The translations under genes were made by a program, and so were the position numbers. Below the pieces are notes generated by a model that saw only the letters and a program-made list of their open reading frames with translations, was not told the origin of the DNA and made no database searches. From assembly GCF_014385085.1 (NCBI RefSeq), contig NZ_JACRTD010000018.1, positions 1 through 6,794 of the forward strand: DNA of 6,794 nt. Direction: 5' to 3'. This document shows positions 34-6,794 of this stretch, piece after piece; within the stretch, counting starts at the first letter, position 1, and the number at the start of each line of letters is the position of its first letter. This DNA comes from Youxingia wuxianensis. Its GTDB lineage: Bacteria; Bacillota; Clostridia; Oscillospirales; Ruminococcaceae.

Positions 34-75
34 AATTACACCTCATCAAATTCCGATTTGTCAAGTTCTCTTAAC
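31..75 (-). repeat. Gene-junction repeat A (before the GNAT-SpoU gene)
   Basis: A 45-bp junction from the stop of the HTH gene (GTTAA) to the ATG of GNAT-SpoU, also present at 6706-6750. It is homologous to 5396-5438, with the dyad CAAAT-CGGA-ATTTG and the ribosome site GAGGTG. Likeness including the stop, spacer and ribosome site suggests duplication of a junction module, not chance. Confidence 0.7.
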
Positions 76-562
76 CTCGAAACAACTTGCTAAACCAGCC
101 CCGTTTTTGCTCCGGCGCCTGGTCCTGCTGATCCGCTCCGGCCTCCCCGGTAAGAAGCTGCTGCTGGATCGTCCCCGCGTGAAGAGCCTGGGCCGCTGCC
201 GCCGTCTGCTGGGCAGCGGCCAGCGCATCAGTGAGCCGAGTAATGGTCTGAGCCTGCTGCTCGATCTGCCGGTCTTTCACTTCAAGCTGCCCTTGCAGTG
301 TGTCGATGGTGGCCTGTAAAACGCAAACCAAATCGCCAACTTCACGGTTTTCGGTTTGCGTTTTAGTTTGCGATTGGTTTTCGATTTCAGTTTGCGTTTT
401 TTCAAAAAAAGCCTGTTTTATCAAAGCTTCCTGGTGTTCATCAATCGCAAACTGGTTTCCGTTTTTTCGCAAACTTGATCGCAAACCCAGGTTTTCGATT
501 TGTTTACTTACCGCTGTCTTTGATACCCCTATCTCGTCGGCTATCTGCCGGATCGTTTTCAT
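71..562 (-). CDS. HTH / coiled-coil plasmid protein, probable Par (DUF536-like)
   Basis: A 163-aa protein, probably for plasmid segregation or copy control. Visible parts are an N-terminal helix-turn-helix (residues 4-26, IADEIGVSKTAVSKQI), a Q/T/E-rich linker (54-75), a long coiled coil (about 76-127) rich in A and Q, and a short basic-aromatic tail (KRGWFSKLFRG). HTH, coiled coil, then a conserved tail is the layout of DUF536 proteins such as pSK1 Par, which work without a partner ATPase. The start at 562 is chosen because ATGA overlaps the stop of the preceding gene (559-561), so translation is probably coupled; no good ribosome site is seen, and an ATG at 589 would overlap that gene by 31 bp. 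The coding sequence itself carries seven copies of GTTTGCG/CGCAAAC. A transcriptional or replication accessory role remains possible. Confidence 0.68.
   Translation of the reverse strand: MKTIRQIADEIGVSKTAVSKQIENLGLRSSLRKNGNQFAIDEHQEALIKQAFFEKTQTEIENQSQTKTQTENREVGDLVCVLQATIDTLQGQLEVKDRQIEQQAQTITRLTDALAAAQQTAAAAQALHAGTIQQQLLTGEAGADQQDQAPEQKRGWFSKLFRG
322..486. repeat. Symmetric GTTTGCG array inside the HTH gene (candidate centromere or iterons)
   Basis: Seven exact 7-mers lie in 165 bp. CGCAAAC (plus strand) is at 322-328, 446-452, 468-474 and 480-486; GTTTGCG is at 354-360, 366-372 and 390-396. The six at 354-486 form an inverted arrangement about position 420, with steps of 12, 24, 56, 22 and 12. 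I found the 7-mer nowhere else in the window. The copies fall in three different codon phases (encoding LR, FA, VC and QT), so protein repetition alone does not explain them. A second motif, GGTTTTCG, occurs at 346, 376 and 490. Such arrays bind Par or Rep proteins in other plasmids; binding by the HTH protein encoded here is inference. Confidence 0.65.
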
Positions 563-807
563 ACTTTCACGAACAGGCCCACAGGACACACACCCTTAAA
601 CCCAGGCGTAGATATGTACCAGCAAGCAGGGCCTGTCGGCTCCCAGGCTACTTCAAGGGTAATCTCGTGCCAGCCATCTGGAAACAAAGCTGTAAATCCC
701 TCTCCTGCGTGTATGCCGCGCCCTTCCAGGAGCAGACGAGGGTGCGGATCATCGTCTGCCGGATCGGGAAGCTGTATCTGCGCGATCCTCTCTTTATCCC
801 AGCTCAT
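559..807 (-). CDS. Small DUF5348-like protein of unknown function
   Basis: An 82-aa acidic protein with no signal peptide or membrane segment. After an N-terminal region rich in D and P, it shows the spaced pattern of the DUF5348 family: IHAGEGF at 32-38, DGW at 44-46, ACWYIS at 61-66 and GLFVKV at the end. The family is common on mobile DNA of Clostridia and has no known role; my assignment rests on this pattern from memory. The ATG at 807 has an ideal ribosome site (AAGGAGG, 816-822, eight bases away). The gene follows the toxin by 18 bp and its TGA overlaps the ATG of the HTH gene, so it sits inside the maintenance operon. A role as accessory to the toxin-antitoxin pair or to partition is possible but unproven. 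Confidence 0.62.
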   Translation of the reverse strand: MSWDKERIAQIQLPDPADDDPHPRLLLEGRGIHAGEGFTALFPDGWHEITLEVAWEPTGPACWYISTPGFKGVCPVGLFVKV

Positions 808-825: not shown

Positions 826-1098
826 CTAAAATAAGTCGCTATGCGATCCCGTCCGGGTAAGATATAAAATCAGCTCGTCCCCGTCCACTTCGTAGATCAG
901 CAACCAATCCGGCGTAATGTGGCACTCACGACACCCCGCATAGTCCCCGGAAAGCTGGTGATCCCTGTTCTTCTCCGGCAACGGCTCCCCCGCAGCCAGC
1001 TTTTTAATAATATCGGTCAGCAAAGAAATATCAAAGCCGCGCTTTTTCACACGCTTCAAATCCTTCTGAAACTTTGTGGTTGGTCTTATGTTATACAT
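826..1098 (-). CDS. yafQ: YafQ-family toxin (mRNA interferase)
   Basis: A 90-aa RelE/ParE-superfamily toxin that in its family cuts mRNA on the ribosome. The YafQ active-site set is complete (numbered from the ATG at 1098): H47 in DHQL, H60 in ECHI, D64 in PDW, H86 in GSH and the C-terminal F90. These match the E. coli YafQ residues H50, H63, D67, H87 and F91 in order and spacing, so the toxin is probably active. I prefer the ATG at 1098 over the in-frame TTG at 1104, because a GGAGGAG lies 10 bases before it inside the antitoxin gene. The gene overlaps the antitoxin stop by 8 bp, typical of coupled toxin-antitoxin pairs. Its likely job is killing or arresting cells that lose the plasmid. Confidence 0.93.
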   Translation of the reverse strand: MYNIRPTTKFQKDLKRVKKRGFDISLLTDIIKKLAAGEPLPEKNRDHQLSGDYAGCRECHITPDWLLIYEVDGDELILYLTRTGSHSDLF

Positions 1099-1372
1099 CG
1101 GCAAGCAGCTCCTCCATCATCTGATCGACATTGGAATAGGTCTTGCCGAGGCTCGGATCGGCCTTCATTCTCTTTACTTCCTGGATTGCTTCGACGGTTT
1201 CTGCGTTCGGCACATCGCCGCTGATTTCAAAGGGTATTCTATACTCTCTCACCGCCTTACGAGCAAAAACATTGAACGCCGTTGTCATCGTCATTCCCAT
1301 ATCAGCACAGAACGCCTCAAACTGCCGCTTCAAATCTGCGTCCATACGGATGTTAATATTTGTATTCGCCAT
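1091..1372 (-). CDS. dinJ: DinJ/RelB-family antitoxin
   Basis: A 93-aa antitoxin that should bind and block the YafQ-type toxin encoded just downstream and repress its own promoter. The N-terminus (residues 3-45, TNINIRMDADLKRQFE then TAFNVFARKAVRE) is the ribbon-helix-helix DNA-binding domain of DinJ/RelB. The charged C-terminal part (about 55-93) would be the toxin-binding arm. The ATG at 1372 is preferred to the TTG at 1381, because AAAGGAG ends nine bases before the ATG but directly abuts the TTG. It is the first gene of the operon, behind a TTGACA/TACAAT promoter that overlaps a perfect 7-bp dyad, the expected place for autoregulation. Confidence 0.93.
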   Translation of the reverse strand: MANTNINIRMDADLKRQFEAFCADMGMTMTTAFNVFARKAVREYRIPFEISGDVPNAETVEAIQEVKRMKADPSLGKTYSNVDQMMEELLADV

Positions 1373-1402
1373 AGATAGCAACTCCTTTCGCTCTTATTAT
1401 AT

Positions 1403-1616: not shown

Positions 1617-3146
1617 TTATTCCTGGCCCCCATCGTGCAGCGCGTCCAGGAGCCAATCGCTCAACTCCTGGGAAGGGGACACCCGCACCGTTACATGCCC
1701 ATTTTCAAAGCGTACCGCTGGCGGCGGGCAATCCCACCACTTACGGACGGTTTTCGGATCAAGGCCAGTTTCCCGGTGACAGTCAGCCTTGCGCCCCTCC
1801 GGGTGCTGCTGCCGCCATTCATAAACCCGCGCCTGGGCCGTCCCGCTGTCTTTAGGCCGCCCATTTCCTTCCCTCCAATCCTTTTTCCCTTGCTGTTTCG
1901 CTTTAATATCCCGAATGGCTCTTGCAATTTCAAGATGATCTGCTTGTTTTTGAAAATTACGCTTATTGACAGGCATAGTCAGGCCGGAGAGCTTCGCTAT
2001 ATCGTCCCTGGGGAATGTCACATAGTCCTCGTTGAACATCTCCAGGGCGCACACCACATCATCTTTTGTAAAGCGGTTTATATCCTCCACACTCATATCA
2101 TCGTAGGGCCGGAGCAGTGCGAAAGCGTCCCGACGCAGCTCGTCCTCGTCTATCCCGCATTTTTTCGCATAAATCGCCAGCGTCATAATGCCATAGAAAC
2201 GATGTCCCACCCGGATTTCATCGGCGATCCGGTGCAGCCACCAGTCGTAAAGGTCACGCTTGACTGTCCAGCGGCCCCGCCGCTCCTTCTTGACAATCCG
2301 CCGCTCATACCAATCCGGATACTTCTCCTTCGCCTCGGCCAGCGACAGGCGGCTCTTTCTCATAAGCCCCTCAAGCCGCTGCTGCTCCCCGTTACTGTCC
2401 GGGATATAATCAAGCAGCCGCGCCAGCTCCACCGGCCCGCCGAGCCGGAACGCCCTCACAGGGTACTCACGCCCCAACTTCGAGCCGGAGCCGACCACCC
2501 GAAAACCCTGCAAAATCCCCTGCATTTGCGGCTCCTTGATGGTGGAGGTAAACTTATTCCAAATCTGCCGGGTAAGGGCATATTTCAGCTCTTTCAAGCA
2601 TTTTTGGTTGTGCGGGTACATAGGCACCGGCTCTTTCAGCACATAATACAGGTGAAGCCCCGTCCCGCTGTTTACAACAAAGGTTGCCTGGGGCAGAATA
2701 TCCTTGTTCATCTGGTGCAGCGTGTCCCGAAGCTGTGGCATACCCACCCCGTCCAGGTCAAAGACCAGGGCATAGAGATACCGGGCATTTTTGCCGCACC
2801 GCCGCCGTCCAAAATAGGAGATAGGGGACATAATCGTGAAATCGGTGTCTTGCAGCTCCCGCAGCTCGTCCAGCTCGTCAGTAATGGTACAGCGTTTCGC
2901 TTTACCGTCCCCCTCAATCTGCAGGGCAATACCAGTAGCCTTGTCAACCTCACCTTTCGGCACCGTCACCGCGATCCCGTTTCCCTTCCTGTCCTCAAAA
3001 TGACCCTTCCTCTCGAAAGATCCTTTCGGGAAGATCTCACGATAAAACTCATACGGCTCCACCGGCTCCAAAAACTTCCCTAAATGCTCGTTCTTTTCCC
3101 TATAAAGTTCCCGCAGCCGTTCCAGTGCTGCTTGCTGATCCGCCAT
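1617..3146 (-). CDS. Plasmid replication protein with archaeo-eukaryotic primase (PrimPol-like) domain
   Basis: A 509-aa protein, the only replication-initiator candidate here. The middle holds archaeo-eukaryotic primase signatures: motif I VFDLDG (128-133, metal-binding D130 and D132), motif II SGTGLH (160-165, H165), and a later FRVVGSGSK (215-223) resembling motif III, where the usual acidic residue is not obvious. A helical region (about 300-370, GHRFYGIMTLAIYAKKCGI) resembles PriCT-type primase C-terminal domains. At about 435-471 a C-terminal helix-turn-helix ends in TVRKWW and could bind the origin. The protein is therefore likely to prime, and perhaps initiate, plasmid replication with the host polymerase. 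The start has AGAGGTG (3153-3159) six bases upstream. The preceding 426 bp hold repeats and dyads that suit an origin. No rolling-circle Rep motif is visible, so theta-type replication is inferred. Confidence 0.84.
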   Translation of the reverse strand: MADQQAALERLRELYREKNEHLGKFLEPVEPYEFYREIFPKGSFERKGHFEDRKGNGIAVTVPKGEVDKATGIALQIEGDGKAKRCTITDELDELRELQDTDFTIMSPISYFGRRRCGKNARYLYALVFDLDGVGMPQLRDTLHQMNKDILPQATFVVNSGTGLHLYYVLKEPVPMYPHNQKCLKELKYALTRQIWNKFTSTIKEPQMQGILQGFRVVGSGSKLGREYPVRAFRLGGPVELARLLDYIPDSNGEQQRLEGLMRKSRLSLAEAKEKYPDWYERRIVKKERRGRWTVKRDLYDWWLHRIADEIRVGHRFYGIMTLAIYAKKCGIDEDELRRDAFALLRPYDDMSVEDINRFTKDDVVCALEMFNEDYVTFPRDDIAKLSGLTMPVNKRNFQKQADHLEIARAIRDIKAKQQGKKDWREGNGRPKDSGTAQARVYEWRQQHPEGRKADCHRETGLDPKTVRKWWDCPPPAVRFENGHVTVRVSPSQELSDWLLDALHDGGQE

Positions 3147-3394: not shown

Positions 3395-3438
3395 CCATAG
3401 GGGGGCATATATTATCAATATATTTTATTCCCTATTTT
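3395..3438. repeat. 44-bp direct repeat, copy 1 (candidate origin repeat)
   Basis: Identical over 44 bases to 3473-3516, with the copies offset by 78 bp. Each begins with CCATAGGGGGG and holds a perfect AT-rich dyad, ATATATT-ATC-AATATAT (3407-3423 in this copy), then TTTATTCCCTATTTT. Repeat plus AT-rich dyad suits an initiator-binding and melting region. It lies about 250 bp upstream of rep. Confidence 0.85.
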
Positions 3439-3472: not shown

Positions 3473-3516
3473 CCATAGGGGGGCATATATTATCAATATA
3501 TTTTATTCCCTATTTT
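3473..3516. repeat. 44-bp direct repeat, copy 2 (candidate origin repeat)
   Basis: Second exact copy of the 3395-3438 repeat, with the same dyad at 3485-3501. It is preceded by CCCCC-ATA-GGGGG (3470-3482), so this copy also carries a GC stem at its edge. It lies just downstream of the candidate rep promoter, within the predicted leader. Confidence 0.85.
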
Positions 3517-3572: not shown

Positions 3573-4799
3573 TTACAGCTCCATACCACCCCAGGTGTGG
3601 CTCCGTTCCTGCTCTCTTTCCGGCTGCTGCACTTCTGGCACAGGTAGCAGCTCACGCGCCTTTTCGACCAGGGGCCGGAACTGCTCTGGCAAGTGCCGAT
3701 CCAGGAAATCCAGCACCGCCCCGATCCCTTCCTGGAGCCGCGCCGAAAACCCGCGCGCCCGGCTCAAATCTTCTTCCAGGTATTCCACCTGCACTTTGAG
3801 CTGCCGGTTTTCATTTTCAAGCCGCTGCCGCTCCTGGGCCTCCTTCAGCTTTTCTTTCGTCGAGGGGATTTTCTGCTGAAGCTGTTGGTTTTCTACCTTC
3901 AGCTCCCGCACCTTCTGCTCTGCCGCCGCGCCCCGGATCACCGCCGCCTTCAGCTCCTTCACCTGCTCCACCGTCACGCCCTTGACGGCCCCTGTCAGCG
4001 TCTTTTCCGGCTGTATTGCGTCCAAATCGGGCTTGACCTTCTCCACCGCTTTCAGCAGCTTCACATTCCCTTGCAGGGCCTTTCTCTGCTTTTCCAGGGC
4101 CGCGATCTCCTGCTCTGCCGCTGTCACCTGTTCCTGGATAGCTTCAAGCCGCTGGGCCGCTGCTCTGTACTCTGGCAGCTCCATATGAGGCCGACCACCG
4201 CCCAAGCTGATAATCTCAAACTCGTGCGCCTGGGCGATTTCCGTTAGGGATTCTTTCTCCCGTTCCATCCAGGCTTTCCATTCCGTCTGCTTCCGGCCCA
4301 GCCCTTCAAATCCCTGCTGCTTTAACGCTTGTTTCATTGATACCCGCGTCGAAAGGCCCCGGCTCTGCTCCGTTGCCACCGGCACGAAGTCCACATGGAG
4401 GTGGGGCGTGGCCTCGTCCATGTGCAGCACCATATTAAACACCCGCAGATGAGGGTTGCGCTCCTGGAAGGACTCTGCAAACTCTTTGAGAGCTGCCGCC
4501 GCCCGTTCCCCTCCAGGGGAGCCGCACCCGCAGTCTGTCAAGTTGCCGATCTGGAAGATAGCCTCGTGAAATAGCTTTTCCTGCTTGCTCTGCCGGATAT
4601 GCTCATAGTAGTCTGGTATCTTGTCCCTGGTCTTTTTCTTTTTGGCATTGTAGGCAGCCAGGGCTTCATCGAAAAGTTCGTGGTACACCTTTTTCAAATC
4701 CTCGTTGCAAAAGGTGACATTCTGCTCCGACCTGCTCCGGTCTACATTCGCCGCTGAAAAGCTCCTGTTGTTGTGCCGGATACTTCCCCGGCCCGTCAT
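3573..4799 (-). CDS. mob: MobV-family relaxase (Pre/Mob plasmid mobilisation protein)
   Basis: A 408-aa relaxase that should nick the plasmid at oriT and pilot the single strand into a recipient, using the conjugation machinery of another element. The N-terminal catalytic half shows the MobV motifs: HNNR at 9-12, FHEAIFQIGN at 77-86 and the metal-binding HMDEATPHLH at 126-135 (H126, H133, H135). The second half is mostly coiled coil (about 212-250 and 290-345), as usual for dimer-forming Pre/Mob proteins. Length and motif set look complete. The ATG at 4799 gives the family-like start MTGRGSIRHNN, but it has no clear ribosome site; upstream non-ATG starts in the same frame (for example ATT at 4806-4808) cannot be excluded. 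No VirD4 or other transfer genes are present, so the plasmid is mobilisable, not self-transmissible. Confidence 0.95.
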   Translation of the reverse strand: MTGRGSIRHNNRSFSAANVDRSRSEQNVTFCNEDLKKVYHELFDEALAAYNAKKKKTRDKIPDYYEHIRQSKQEKLFHEAIFQIGNLTDCGCGSPGGERAAAALKEFAESFQERNPHLRVFNMVLHMDEATPHLHVDFVPVATEQSRGLSTRVSMKQALKQQGFEGLGRKQTEWKAWMEREKESLTEIAQAHEFEIISLGGGRPHMELPEYRAAAQRLEAIQEQVTAAEQEIAALEKQRKALQGNVKLLKAVEKVKPDLDAIQPEKTLTGAVKGVTVEQVKELKAAVIRGAAAEQKVRELKVENQQLQQKIPSTKEKLKEAQERQRLENENRQLKVQVEYLEEDLSRARGFSARLQEGIGAVLDFLDRHLPEQFRPLVEKARELLPVPEVQQPEREQERSHTWGGMEL

Positions 4800-4904: not shown

Positions 4905-4987
4905 GTTACTTTCTTGTGAGAAAGTAACGCAAAAGCACTTTCACACCACCGCCCCTTTGGGGCTGGCAGTATGAAAGTGCCTTTGCG
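4905..4987. other. Candidate oriT: nested inverted repeats upstream of mob
   Basis: Two structures abut. The first is a perfect 10-bp hairpin, GTTACTTTCT (4905-4914) with AGAAAGTAAC (4919-4928), loop TGTG. The second is a 16-bp inverted repeat with one mismatch (4928-4943 with 4972-4987), enclosing GCCCC-TTT-GGGGC (4951-4963). The core AAAGT at 4921-4925 can pair with an ACTTT on either side, much like the alternative hairpins of the pMV158 MobV oriT. A further dyad, GCTAC/GTAGC, lies at 4999-5016. Position upstream of a MobV gene is the usual oriT position. The pMV158 nick sequence itself is not present, so the nick site is not assigned. Confidence 0.6.
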
Positions 4988-5038
4988 CCCTGCCGGGGGC
5001 TACAAGAGTCGGTAGCTCGCTGCTGCTTTTATACTAAG

Positions 5039-5398
5039 TTAGAATTTATCATCCAAAAATTTGTTTTTTATTCCTGTTTCAGTTTTGTAAAACCCAAAAA
5101 ACAGAAATATAATTCCAACGGCTACTCCTGCAAATACGGTAGACTGTGCGGAAATATTAAGAAAAAGTAAGGATATACACAAAACGATTTCTACCAAACC
5201 TAATGTTTTGCCAATACCAATAAAAATATTAGGCGCTATGCTTTGTGCATAATCCCAATGCTCTTGTGACTTTCGTGAGGAAGGTGTGTTGTACCCGTTG
5301 CCAGAGTTCATATCTTTTACAGGGTGCTTCTTTAAGATATATCCCACAAAAATCATCACGAACGGTATTACGAAATTCAATATAAGTAATCCATACAT
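5039..5398 (-). CDS. SdpI-family small membrane protein (possible bacteriocin immunity)
   Basis: A 119-aa protein with three likely membrane helices (about 2-22, 61-80 and 86-104). Between the first two is the SdpI signature loop: GYNTPSSRKSQEHWDYAQ (35-52), matching the family pattern G-Y-x-T-P ... W-x-Y-A. Bacillus subtilis SdpI protects cells against the SdpC toxin and helps to sense it; it is about 200 aa, so this is the short single-domain form. No sdpC-, sdpAB- or sdpR-like gene is present, so it is an orphan and its toxin is unknown. The start has GAGGAG eight bases upstream. It is AT-rich (about 37% GC), unlike the backbone, and follows the GNAT-SpoU stop by 35 bp, in the same operon. 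Confidence 0.76.
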   Translation of the reverse strand: MYGLLILNFVIPFVMIFVGYILKKHPVKDMNSGNGYNTPSSRKSQEHWDYAQSIAPNIFIGIGKTLGLVEIVLCISLLFLNISAQSTVFAGVAVGIIFLFFGFYKTETGIKNKFLDDKF

Positions 5399-5438
5399 AA
5401 GAACATCTCCTCAAATTAGGATTTGACTATCTCTTAAC
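5396..5438 (-). repeat. Gene-junction repeat B (before the SdpI gene)
   Basis: This 43-bp junction, from GTTAA at the SpoU stop to the ATG of the SdpI gene, is an imperfect copy of 31-75, with about 80% of positions shared. Common blocks in order are GTTAAGAGA, CAAATC, AATTTGA, GAG, TGT and TTATG. Both contain a CAAAT-N4-ATTTG dyad. The two copies flank the GNAT-SpoU gene exactly. Confidence 0.7.
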
Positions 5439-6291
5439 ACGCGCCCCCCGCGACTTCGCCGCGGCACGTTGCCGCCGCGCGTTGGCGCACGGCTTCGTAG
5501 AACATGACTGTGGCGGCGCAGGCCACGTTGAAGGAACTGGCCGAGCCGCGCGGATTCATCGGAATCGTCGCGAGCACGTCGCTGCGCTCCTTGTAAATGC
5601 GGCGCAGGCCCTCGGTCTCGTTGCCGATCAGCAGCATCGTCGGCTTTGTGAAGTCCACTTCCGAAAGCGTCTTTTCGTGGTGCGCCGTCGTGCCCACCAC
5701 CTGAAAGCCCGGGTAGCGCGCCTTCAGCGCGTCGATCAACGCAAAAACCGAGTCGTTGTCCGACATGCGGACCGCCGGCACGCAAAAGAACGAGCCCATC
5801 GTCGAGGAAACGACGTCCGGGTCGTACAGGTCCACGCCGTGCCCGGTCAGGATCAGCCCCTCCACGCCGAGCGCGTCGCAGGAGCGCAGGATCGTGCCGA
5901 GATTGCCGTGGTTCGAGGGGCGGTCGAACAGCGCGATCAGCGGGTTTTCCGAAAGCGGGATGCGCGAAAAATCGTCGTCCCGCATTTTGACGACCGCCAG
6001 CAGCTCCGAGGTGTCCGCCTTGCCGCTGAGCGCCGCGAGCAGCTCGCCGCGCAGCGCGTAGTTGACCTGCGTGCGCACCGCGGCGAGCTTGTCCCTGGCC
6101 CAGTCCGAGAGCTTCCGGTCGCCGTCGTAGAGGAACGACACGATCTCCCAGCCGTTTTCGACGGCGTTGTTGATGTTTCGCACGCCCTCGACGAAGAATT
6201 CCCCGTACTTGTACCGCTTGTTGCGGTTGGTCTTCAGCACCTCAAATTTCTGGTATGTCGCGCTGCGCGTGTAAACGCGTTCCGTTTTAAC
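5434..6291 (-). mobile_element. Inserted SpoU coding block bounded by GTTAA
   Basis: A GC-rich block (5439-6286, 848 bp) is flanked on both sides by GTTAA on the minus strand (6291-6287 and 5438-5434). Outside it, both sides are AT-rich. Joining the two flanks through one GTTAA gives GNAT codons ...CGA GTT AAG AGA TAG, a stop two residues after K141, hence a normal 142-aa GNAT followed at once by the SdpI gene. The SpoU stop TAA is itself formed by the right-hand GTTAA. No transposase, integrase or clear terminal inverted repeat is seen in the block. The 5-bp repeat may be a target duplication or microhomology; the means of insertion is unknown. Confidence 0.72.
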
Positions 6292-6708
6292 TCGTTTTGA
6301 TAAATGAAGTTCATTATCATCTACATATCCAAGTTTATTATATACAGTTTGTGCAACAAGATTTTCTTGTCCTGTTAGAAGTTCATATTGGTGAAGTGGA
6401 TAATTCTTACTACAATAAGCCTCTGCAAAAGTAATCATCTCACTCGCTAAGCCTCTTTTTCTGTATGCTGGTTTAACATACACTTCTGTAATTTCAGGCA
6501 TATATTCATCATAGCAGAACGATTTTTTAAGCTGAACACAAACAAATCCAACTAACATATCATCTTCATCAGCAACGATAACAACTTCCTGTTTATTATT
6601 CATAAGGGAATTTCTAATATTGTCTATGCTTGTTTCGCTCTCACCATTAAATTCATCATTTAAGATGTTTAATTGCTCTGCATCATTTACTGTTGCAATT
6701 CTTACCAT
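5434..6708 (-). CDS. GNAT acetyltransferase fused to SpoU/TrmH RNA 2'-O-methyltransferase
   Basis: A 424-aa in-frame fusion. Residues 1-140 are a GNAT acetyltransferase: the acetyl-CoA loop is RKRGLA (83-88) after TEVYVKP, and NLVAQTVYNKLGY (116-128) is motif B. Its substrate is unknown; an antibiotic, a protein or a small amine are all possible. Residues about 141-405 are a complete SpoU/TrmH (SPOUT) methyltransferase with a substrate-binding N-part (ATYQKFEVLKTNRNKRY) and the three motifs: NHGNLGTILR (266-275, catalytic R275), LLIGNETEGL (359-368) and IPMNPRGS...SFNVACAA (382-399). Such enzymes methylate ribose in rRNA or tRNA, and some give antibiotic resistance. Base composition jumps from about 33% GC (GNAT) to about 65% (SpoU) at codon 140/141. 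After that the first in-frame Met is residue 242, so the methyltransferase can be made only as a fusion. GAGGTG precedes the ATG at 6708. Confidence 0.92.
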   Translation of the reverse strand: MVRIATVNDAEQLNILNDEFNGESETSIDNIRNSLMNNKQEVVIVADEDDMLVGFVCVQLKKSFCYDEYMPEITEVYVKPAYRKRGLASEMITFAEAYCSKNYPLHQYELLTGQENLVAQTVYNKLGYVDDNELHLSKRVKTERVYTRSATYQKFEVLKTNRNKRYKYGEFFVEGVRNINNAVENGWEIVSFLYDGDRKLSDWARDKLAAVRTQVNYALRGELLAALSGKADTSELLAVVKMRDDDFSRIPLSENPLIALFDRPSNHGNLGTILRSCDALGVEGLILTGHGVDLYDPDVVSSTMGSFFCVPAVRMSDNDSVFALIDALKARYPGFQVVGTTAHHEKTLSEVDFTKPTMLLIGNETEGLRRIYKERSDVLATIPMNPRGSASSFNVACAATVMFYEAVRQRAAATCRGEVAGGAC

Positions 6709-6794
6709 AATTACACCTCATCAAATTCCGATTTGTCAAGTTCTCTTAACCTCGAAACAACTTGCTAAACCAGCCCCGTTTTTGCTCCGGCGCC
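6676..6794. repeat. Terminal direct repeat, right copy (circular overlap)
   Basis: Exact second copy of bases 1-119. It holds the first 11 codons of the GNAT-SpoU gene, the 37-bp gap before it and the last codons of the HTH protein gene. Closing the circle here puts the GNAT-SpoU gene 37 bp downstream of the HTH protein gene on the same strand. Confidence 0.95.

Follow-up and report, generated by a model that had tools for sequence, protein, structure and literature searches.

The bifunctional resistance enzyme AAC(6')-Ie-APH(2'')-Ia, a plasmid-borne two-enzyme protein with the acetyltransferase first, was made by gene fusion, and homology-facilitated or double illegitimate recombination joins foreign DNA at a few shared bases. 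Two MOBV plasmids of gut Bacillota, Blautia hydrogenotrophica plasmid NZ_CP136424 and Clostridioides difficile pCd13 (NZ_MH229772), carry genes for free-standing rRNA methyltransferases, Erm(B) and Cfr(C) respectively, and the Campylobacter plasmids pCC20JX12-60K and pCJ3K-03 carry a gene for a 142-aa GNAT protein (WP_025096305.1) that ends at its own TAG and lies between 14-bp edge palindromes. AviRb (PDB 1x7o/1x7p), the 23S rRNA (uridine-2479-2'-O)-methyltransferase of an avilamycin producer, makes Um2479 and confers avilamycin resistance, as stated in the review PMC9508554.

The window, by which we mean the whole 6,794-nucleotide stretch of DNA analysed, is a circular plasmid of 6675 bp, its first and last 119 bases being the same, in which a GNAT domain and a SpoU methyltransferase are encoded by one gene (Table 1); the product is predicted to be bifunctional and to modify ribosomes. 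The captured SpoU half has the two-domain architecture of AviRb, but it follows a GNAT domain and is carried, outside any antibiotic cluster, by a relative of mobilisable gut Bacillota plasmids. The order of the enzymes recalls AAC(6')-Ie-APH(2'')-Ia, whereas the second domain of the fusion is predicted to act on RNA and not on a drug, and its GNAT part does not reach the NCBIfam cut-off for AAC(6') (27.7 versus 140 bits). The GNAT gene shares 99.8% nucleotide identity over 450 bp, and the same palindromes, with its Campylobacter counterpart, in which the SpoU part is absent. As on NZ_CP136424 and pCd13, an rRNA methyltransferase gene occupies the slot of a related backbone, although the chemistry and target bases of Erm(B) and Cfr(C) are unlike those of the AviRb-like half. 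Finally, foreign DNA joined at few shared bases is also what we propose here, with the differences that a whole gene of ~850 bp was gained and that the overlap is putative.

Table 1. Features of the plasmid, in coordinates of the window; strand is given where assigned.
Feature	Position	Strand	Remarks
ORF	71-589		sub-cut-off match to plasmid replication DNA-binding protein
RelB/YafQ toxin-antitoxin pair	826-1381		Pfam
509-aa ORF	1617-3146		no family match
Mob_Pre relaxase gene	3573-4799		MobV-like; NCBIfam cut-off not reached
AT-rich accessory slot	5009..6735	.	SdpI and fusion
SdpI-like membrane protein gene	5039-5398	(-)	follows GNAT in empty-site copies too
14-bp imperfect palindrome CAAATnnnnATTTG	5412..5425	.	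GNAT unit edge, 3' side, just before SdpI gene
Fused GNAT-SpoU(AviRb-like) gene	5434..6708	(-)	424 aa, single open frame; PF00583 and PF00588 + PF22655 in one ORF
GTTAA, right join	5434..5438	(-)	TAA inside is the stop codon of the fusion
AviRb-like SpoU part, codons 141-424 plus stop	5434..6288	(-)	codon 141 opposite codon 2 of free-standing relatives
Inserted block	5439..6286	(-)	848 bp, 853 with one GTTAA; GC 64.3%
GTTAA, left join	6287..6291	(-)	codon 140 and first two bases of codon 141
GNAT part, codons 1-140	6289..6708	(-)	Pfam; 100% nucleotide identity to L059 and L076
Ribosome-binding-like GAGGTG	6714..6719	(-)	5 bases before GNAT ATG; read from sequence
14-bp imperfect palindrome CAAATnnnnATTTG	6722..6735	.	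GNAT unit edge, 5' side

An earlier note on this DNA proposed that a foreign, nearly gene-exact SpoU gene had been inserted at a GTTAA in the end of the GNAT gene, with the jump in GC content falling exactly at the two GTTAA pentamers, and that removal of 853 bp would restore a 142-aa GNAT gene followed by SdpI. The sequence and its relatives bear all of this out. GC content changes sharply at the joins, from 31.8% in GNAT and 34.7% on the SdpI side to 64.3% in the block (the plasmid backbone has 53.8%), and GC3 rises from 0.193 in codons 1-140 to 0.877 in codons 141-424. The search for relatives without SpoU that the note had suggested yielded two copies of nearly the same plasmid. One is contig C14, in the very assembly under which the window is filed: it is the same plasmid without the block, the sequence running continuously across the site, and its 5949 bp with a 127-bp terminal repeat give a circle of 5822 bp, exactly 853 bp less than the 6675 bp of the window, from which it otherwise differs by one base at 4934 and one mismatch beside the join. 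The other is a plasmid of Merdimmobilis hominis An559 (L076; 99.94% identity over 5393 bp, circle of 6640 bp), in which the intact 142-aa GNAT ends in SKRVKR and the GNAT-SdpI junction is as in C14.

The block brings no SpoU start codon of its own, as the note had also remarked. The start of the free-standing relatives (M1 of P0004 to P0012) aligns with V140 of the fusion, in L001, L002 and L005 the gene opens with GTG or ATG and then reads AGA/AAA AC., and the first methionine past residue 140 is M242; GAGGTG with the GNAT ATG is thus the only evident translation start for the fusion. From relatives whose nearest members are 92% identical in amino acids and 82% in nucleotides, we infer that the start codon of the captured gene was replaced by the join.

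The fusion is recent and has spread. Among protein clusters at 90% identity it forms P0001, which has 871 member sequences (sources listed jgi, lgn, ena), shares 422 of 424 residues with the window's protein and probably consists of near full-length members, since shorter pieces (P0002, P0031) cluster separately. A GNAT domain was found in 6 of the best 120 of 2897 clusters found, the join SKRV-KTERVYTRSATYQ being identical in all six; the right join is also visible in P0003 and P0015, read in a shifted frame. Because one join is common to the six fused clusters listed, the gene was probably captured once and then spread. In five of the fused clusters (81 members: P0002 with 51, P0031 with 26, P0015 with 2, P0003 and P0037 with 1 each) the SpoU half is shifted, cut or chimeric, which means either faulty data in some cases or a SpoU half that is sometimes lost. 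We note that the GNAT N-terminus of P0003 carries residues found in other GNAT alleles, pointing to either a chimera or recombination that followed the capture.

These clusters bear directly on whether the window is an assembly or library chimera. Such an origin would account for the plasmid without the block in the window's own assembly, where nothing block-like is seen elsewhere (best chance match E 0.08), but it is very improbable and close to refuted: the cluster of 871 members draws on jgi, lgn and ena, all 6 of the fused clusters listed have the same join, an assembler would not be misled by anything as short as GTTAA, and the contig closes as a circle. The assembly error that the earlier note had held against its own reading is rejected on the strength of the cluster, the common join and the circular closure, and we are practically certain that the fusion is real. 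Its other counter-case, many homologues of uniform composition, holds in one half only, as the homologues are indeed many (871 members) and their composition is not uniform; they look like copies of one event. Among 52 loci of species genomes, none has both halves: 28 match SpoU alone and 24 match GNAT alone. In L038 and L040, long tblastn matches that ran on beyond the GNAT end were rejected as chance extensions past a stop. IMG/VR gave no match to the join pattern, the protein or the palindrome pattern.

A few further clusters show other sequence at the end of the GNAT gene. In P0124 (1 member, 2 contigs, source lgn) GNAT is joined after the same V140 to an unrelated sequence that is also found in P0240, a lead, known from protein only, that the V140 spot is reused, and in P0122 GNAT is joined to unrelated sequence at its stop codon; each may be a further insertion at this gene end or an assembly artefact. 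In P0121 (3 members) the GNAT stop codon is apparently changed, with read-through into the SdpI region in another frame.

As to how the block was joined, we favour with moderate confidence the reading that 853 bp with an AviRb-like gene that seems to lack only its first codon entered in frame at the GTTAA of the GNAT end, likely once and by microhomology, giving a protein predicted to be bifunctional and to methylate 23S rRNA; for microhomology as the joining route our confidence is equally moderate. On this view the GNAT end took up a DNA fragment of a high-GC Clostridia gene, with a 5-bp overlap (GTTAA) on the right side and one of two bases (AA) on the left; the native SpoU gene would in that case end in TGTTAA, and translation would run from the GNAT ribosome-binding site. 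A block without a start codon could be expressed only after joining in frame. Of 200,000 simulated random blunt insertions, 0.4% produced a flanking repeat of at least 5 bp, and this rarity points to microhomology or a 5-bp target duplication, with either of which the presence of GTTAA at both block ends is compatible; homology at the left join is at most 2 bp. The two are not separable with nearest free-standing relatives of only 92% amino acid and 82% nucleotide identity.

A target duplication, or a core site, is what GTTAA would be if the block had entered through a recombinase or transposase acting in trans, as an integron-like or other cassette. The 5-bp direct repeat at the block ends would suit this, as would the host GNAT gene being itself a site-bounded exchangeable unit and the joining of P0124 (1 member, 2 contigs) to unrelated sequence after the same V140 codon. 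We nevertheless think it quite unlikely. Terminal inverted repeats of the block do not exceed what chance gives (score 5, matched by 2595 of 5000 shuffles), it showed no attC-like fold in a simple fold test (z of -1.3 and -1.6, and -0.9 on the other strand, with internal controls at -1.9 and 0.2), and its ends do not lie at CAAATnnnnATTTG sites. The integron core-site consensus is GTTRRRY, whereas the joins read GTTAAAA and GTTAAGA, with A as the seventh base on both sides. Pfam detected no transposase or integrase in the 8 ORFs scanned, 3 of which have no family match. RNA-mediated capture, in which a SpoU transcript is reverse-transcribed and then inserted, would explain why the block is almost purely coding sequence; it is extremely improbable, as the start codon and leader expected of a transcript are absent and none of the 8 ORFs scanned matched a reverse transcriptase in Pfam. 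Microhomology joining, which was among the options that the earlier note had listed, is enough to explain the block, and with neither inverted repeats beyond chance, an attC-like fold, a transposase nor an integrase detected, the undescribed route it had entertained is not supported.

The captured half is AviRb-like with high confidence, a likeness that the earlier note overlooked, as it did the site-bounded nature of the GNAT gene. Pfam assigns it a SpoU methylase domain (PF00588, 1.9e-30) with an L30e-like N-domain (PF22655, 2.8e-21), and in a phmmer search of solved structures with P0001, AviRb was matched at E 3.3e-72 over residues 142-412, the next best match being at 2.1e-27; among solved SpoU enzymes the bit scores were 246.8 for AviRb and 99.2 for the runner-up. 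Identity to AviRb is 48.9% (131 of 268 aligned residues), and the motifs GN.G...R, GNET and SASS-N, which we take to be the catalytic and cofactor motifs of SpoU/SPOUT enzymes, are common to both in the alignment and occupy nearly invariant columns. An AlphaFold2 model from a 28-row alignment has a mean pLDDT of 75.2, mostly above 80 in the SpoU half and 28-63 by blocks of ten in the poorly modelled GNAT half; the top four Foldseek matches in the PDB are AviRb chains, with TM of 0.90-0.92 by target length and rmsd of 2.1-2.2. The NCBIfam cut-offs for named methyltransferases are not reached by the fusion, and an AviRb-like sequence is no proof of U2479 as the target. Resistance to orthosomycins of the avilamycin type is a tentative prediction for the fusion, with a likelihood that we put a little short of even. 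If the AviRb-like half works, it would be a mobile methyltransferase acting at a 23S rRNA site that avilamycin and other orthosomycins target, and its plasmid belongs to a type that already has erm(B)- and cfr(C)-bearing relatives. Among the titles and abstract openings listed in literature searches, none pointed to a fusion of GNAT and SpoU, to AviRb on a plasmid or to edge sites of this kind.

The SpoU half could instead be a passenger, really inserted and useless, and kept as hardly harmful to the GNAT gene or the plasmid. The 81 members of five fused clusters with a disturbed SpoU half speak for this, and so do the loss of only the last residues from the GNAT half and the persistence of plasmids with the empty site. 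That the full-length cluster has 871 members, that the SPOUT motif residues are kept in the fusion, and that a frame of 284 codons at 64% GC is still open all speak against it, and we regard a useless SpoU half as unlikely.

The chromosomal SpoU parent that the earlier note had proposed to search for did not come to light, the nearest free-standing gene in genomes being at 82% nucleotide identity and the nearest relatives among the matches listed (P0004, P0005) at 92% amino acid identity. Within the window's own assembly the best match (E 0.08) was rejected as chance; among 17 genomes of the genus and 393 of the order, its own included, only its own empty site matched; 391 genomes of the class gave one weak match, 74% over 181 bp; and around the nearest donor-side genome (7 genomes of its genus, 398 of its family and 376 relatives) nothing came nearer than 82% in nucleotides. 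In the nearest donor-side family, the AviRb-like gene is present at E 1e-40 in only 4 of 150 genomes, a count that includes the centre genome and in which completeness is unstated, and it is thus accessory rather than housekeeping there. The ten neighbour proteins in six free-standing loci differ from locus to locus, except between L001 and L002, which fits an accessory gene, the neighbours of these two being not wholly unlike. In both of these nearest free-standing loci the downstream gene (L001 7021-7995, L002 7476-8450) encodes a protein of 324 aa with a GNAT domain.

The GNAT gene that received the block has a history of movement of its own to consider. Its domain (PF00583) scores 48.3 bits against a Pfam cut-off of 20.7, intact copies have 141-144 aa in 10 of 10 loci translated, and acetylation by the GNAT half of the fusion is putative. 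Twelve GNAT loci have at least 87% nucleotide identity and both flanks, and represent fewer than 12 contexts, since L055/L056, L085/L086 and L059/L076 are related pairs; 10 of the loci have the two palindromes, with one mismatch at most, L031 having the 3' one only and L030 neither. In the window both are intact and bracket the whole fusion. The DNA shared around GNAT extends for only 11-32 bp upstream and 6-22 bp downstream (36 pairs, 9 loci), with the exception of the downstream side in the near-identical plasmids L059 and L076.

Different units are found behind one and the same edge. At an IS1595-type end, L087 (with GNAT) and L093 (with CPT) are identical at 190 of 200 upstream positions, 14 of 14 in the palindrome and 17 of 60 downstream. 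The Campylobacter array L055 is L090 plus one GNAT unit, the second palindrome being followed by 160/160 identical bases, while upstream, where tandem repeats differ, an ungapped count gives 76/200. The edge of the MobV backbone carries GNAT in the window, an MBL gene with a degenerate palindrome in L076, or CPT in pCd13. For the CPT unit in 27 other plasmid records, many of one lineage, similarity ends at palindrome base two in 21, inside the palindrome in 3, just after it in 2 and elsewhere in 1. The CPT/aad6 units are edged by the palindrome at their 5' end alone, no such edge accompanies the remaining annotated genes of arrays L055, L089 and L090, and in a scan of 88 sources the units with both edges were GNAT and the fusion only. 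Palindrome-edged units (L055-L057, L059, L076, L080, L085-L093) occur in Campylobacter, Enterococcus, Kurthia, Clostridioides and Lachnospiraceae-type records.

Judged from these alignments, the GNAT gene is an exchangeable unit edged by CAAATnnnnATTTG palindromes, and the arrangement looks integron-like. A much wider reading, which we offer as speculation and consider rather unlikely, is that an integron-like exchange system, so far unrecognised, is common to Bacillota and Campylobacter and shifts CAAATnnnnATTTG-joined units with precision from one plasmid backbone, IS1595 element or resistance array to another, and that here a unit gained an AviRb-like gene at a GTTAA weak point, 8 bp from its edge palindrome, to become a mobile bifunctional orthosomycin-resistance unit. 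Should the edge palindromes be exchange sites, they would explain how single genes travel between Campylobacter and gut Bacillota although no recombinase is visible.

In NZ_CP136424, whose backbone is 94.4% identical over 73% of the window, the slot in which the fusion lies holds erm(B); in pCd13, at 77.9% identity over 17%, it holds aph(3')-IIIa and cfr(C). The plasmids have the slot edge in common: L076 agrees with the window at every one of the 120 positions in front of the palindrome (120/120), and in a gapped alignment with pCd13, 90 of 128 aligned columns match, 0 of 500 shuffles being as good. Three plasmids thus carry three kinds of 23S rRNA methyltransferase gene, a pattern and not proof of resistance. 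What the locus offers in any event is a recent two-enzyme gene made from a whole foreign gene in the end of a plasmid gene; as nearly identical plasmids preserve the state before capture, the origin of a fusion protein can be followed and tested here.

PADLOC gave no match. The backbone has two exact 44-bp copies (3395-3438 and 3473-3516), between the 509-aa ORF and the mob gene, which may be part of the replication origin. Neither the MBL gene of L076 nor the P0240 sequence had a match among PLSDB plasmids; the former is an extra gene of the metallo-beta-lactamase superfamily (Pfam), at 6063-6749 of L076 between backbone and GNAT, and begins at the degenerate palindrome copy CAAATTAGAATTG.
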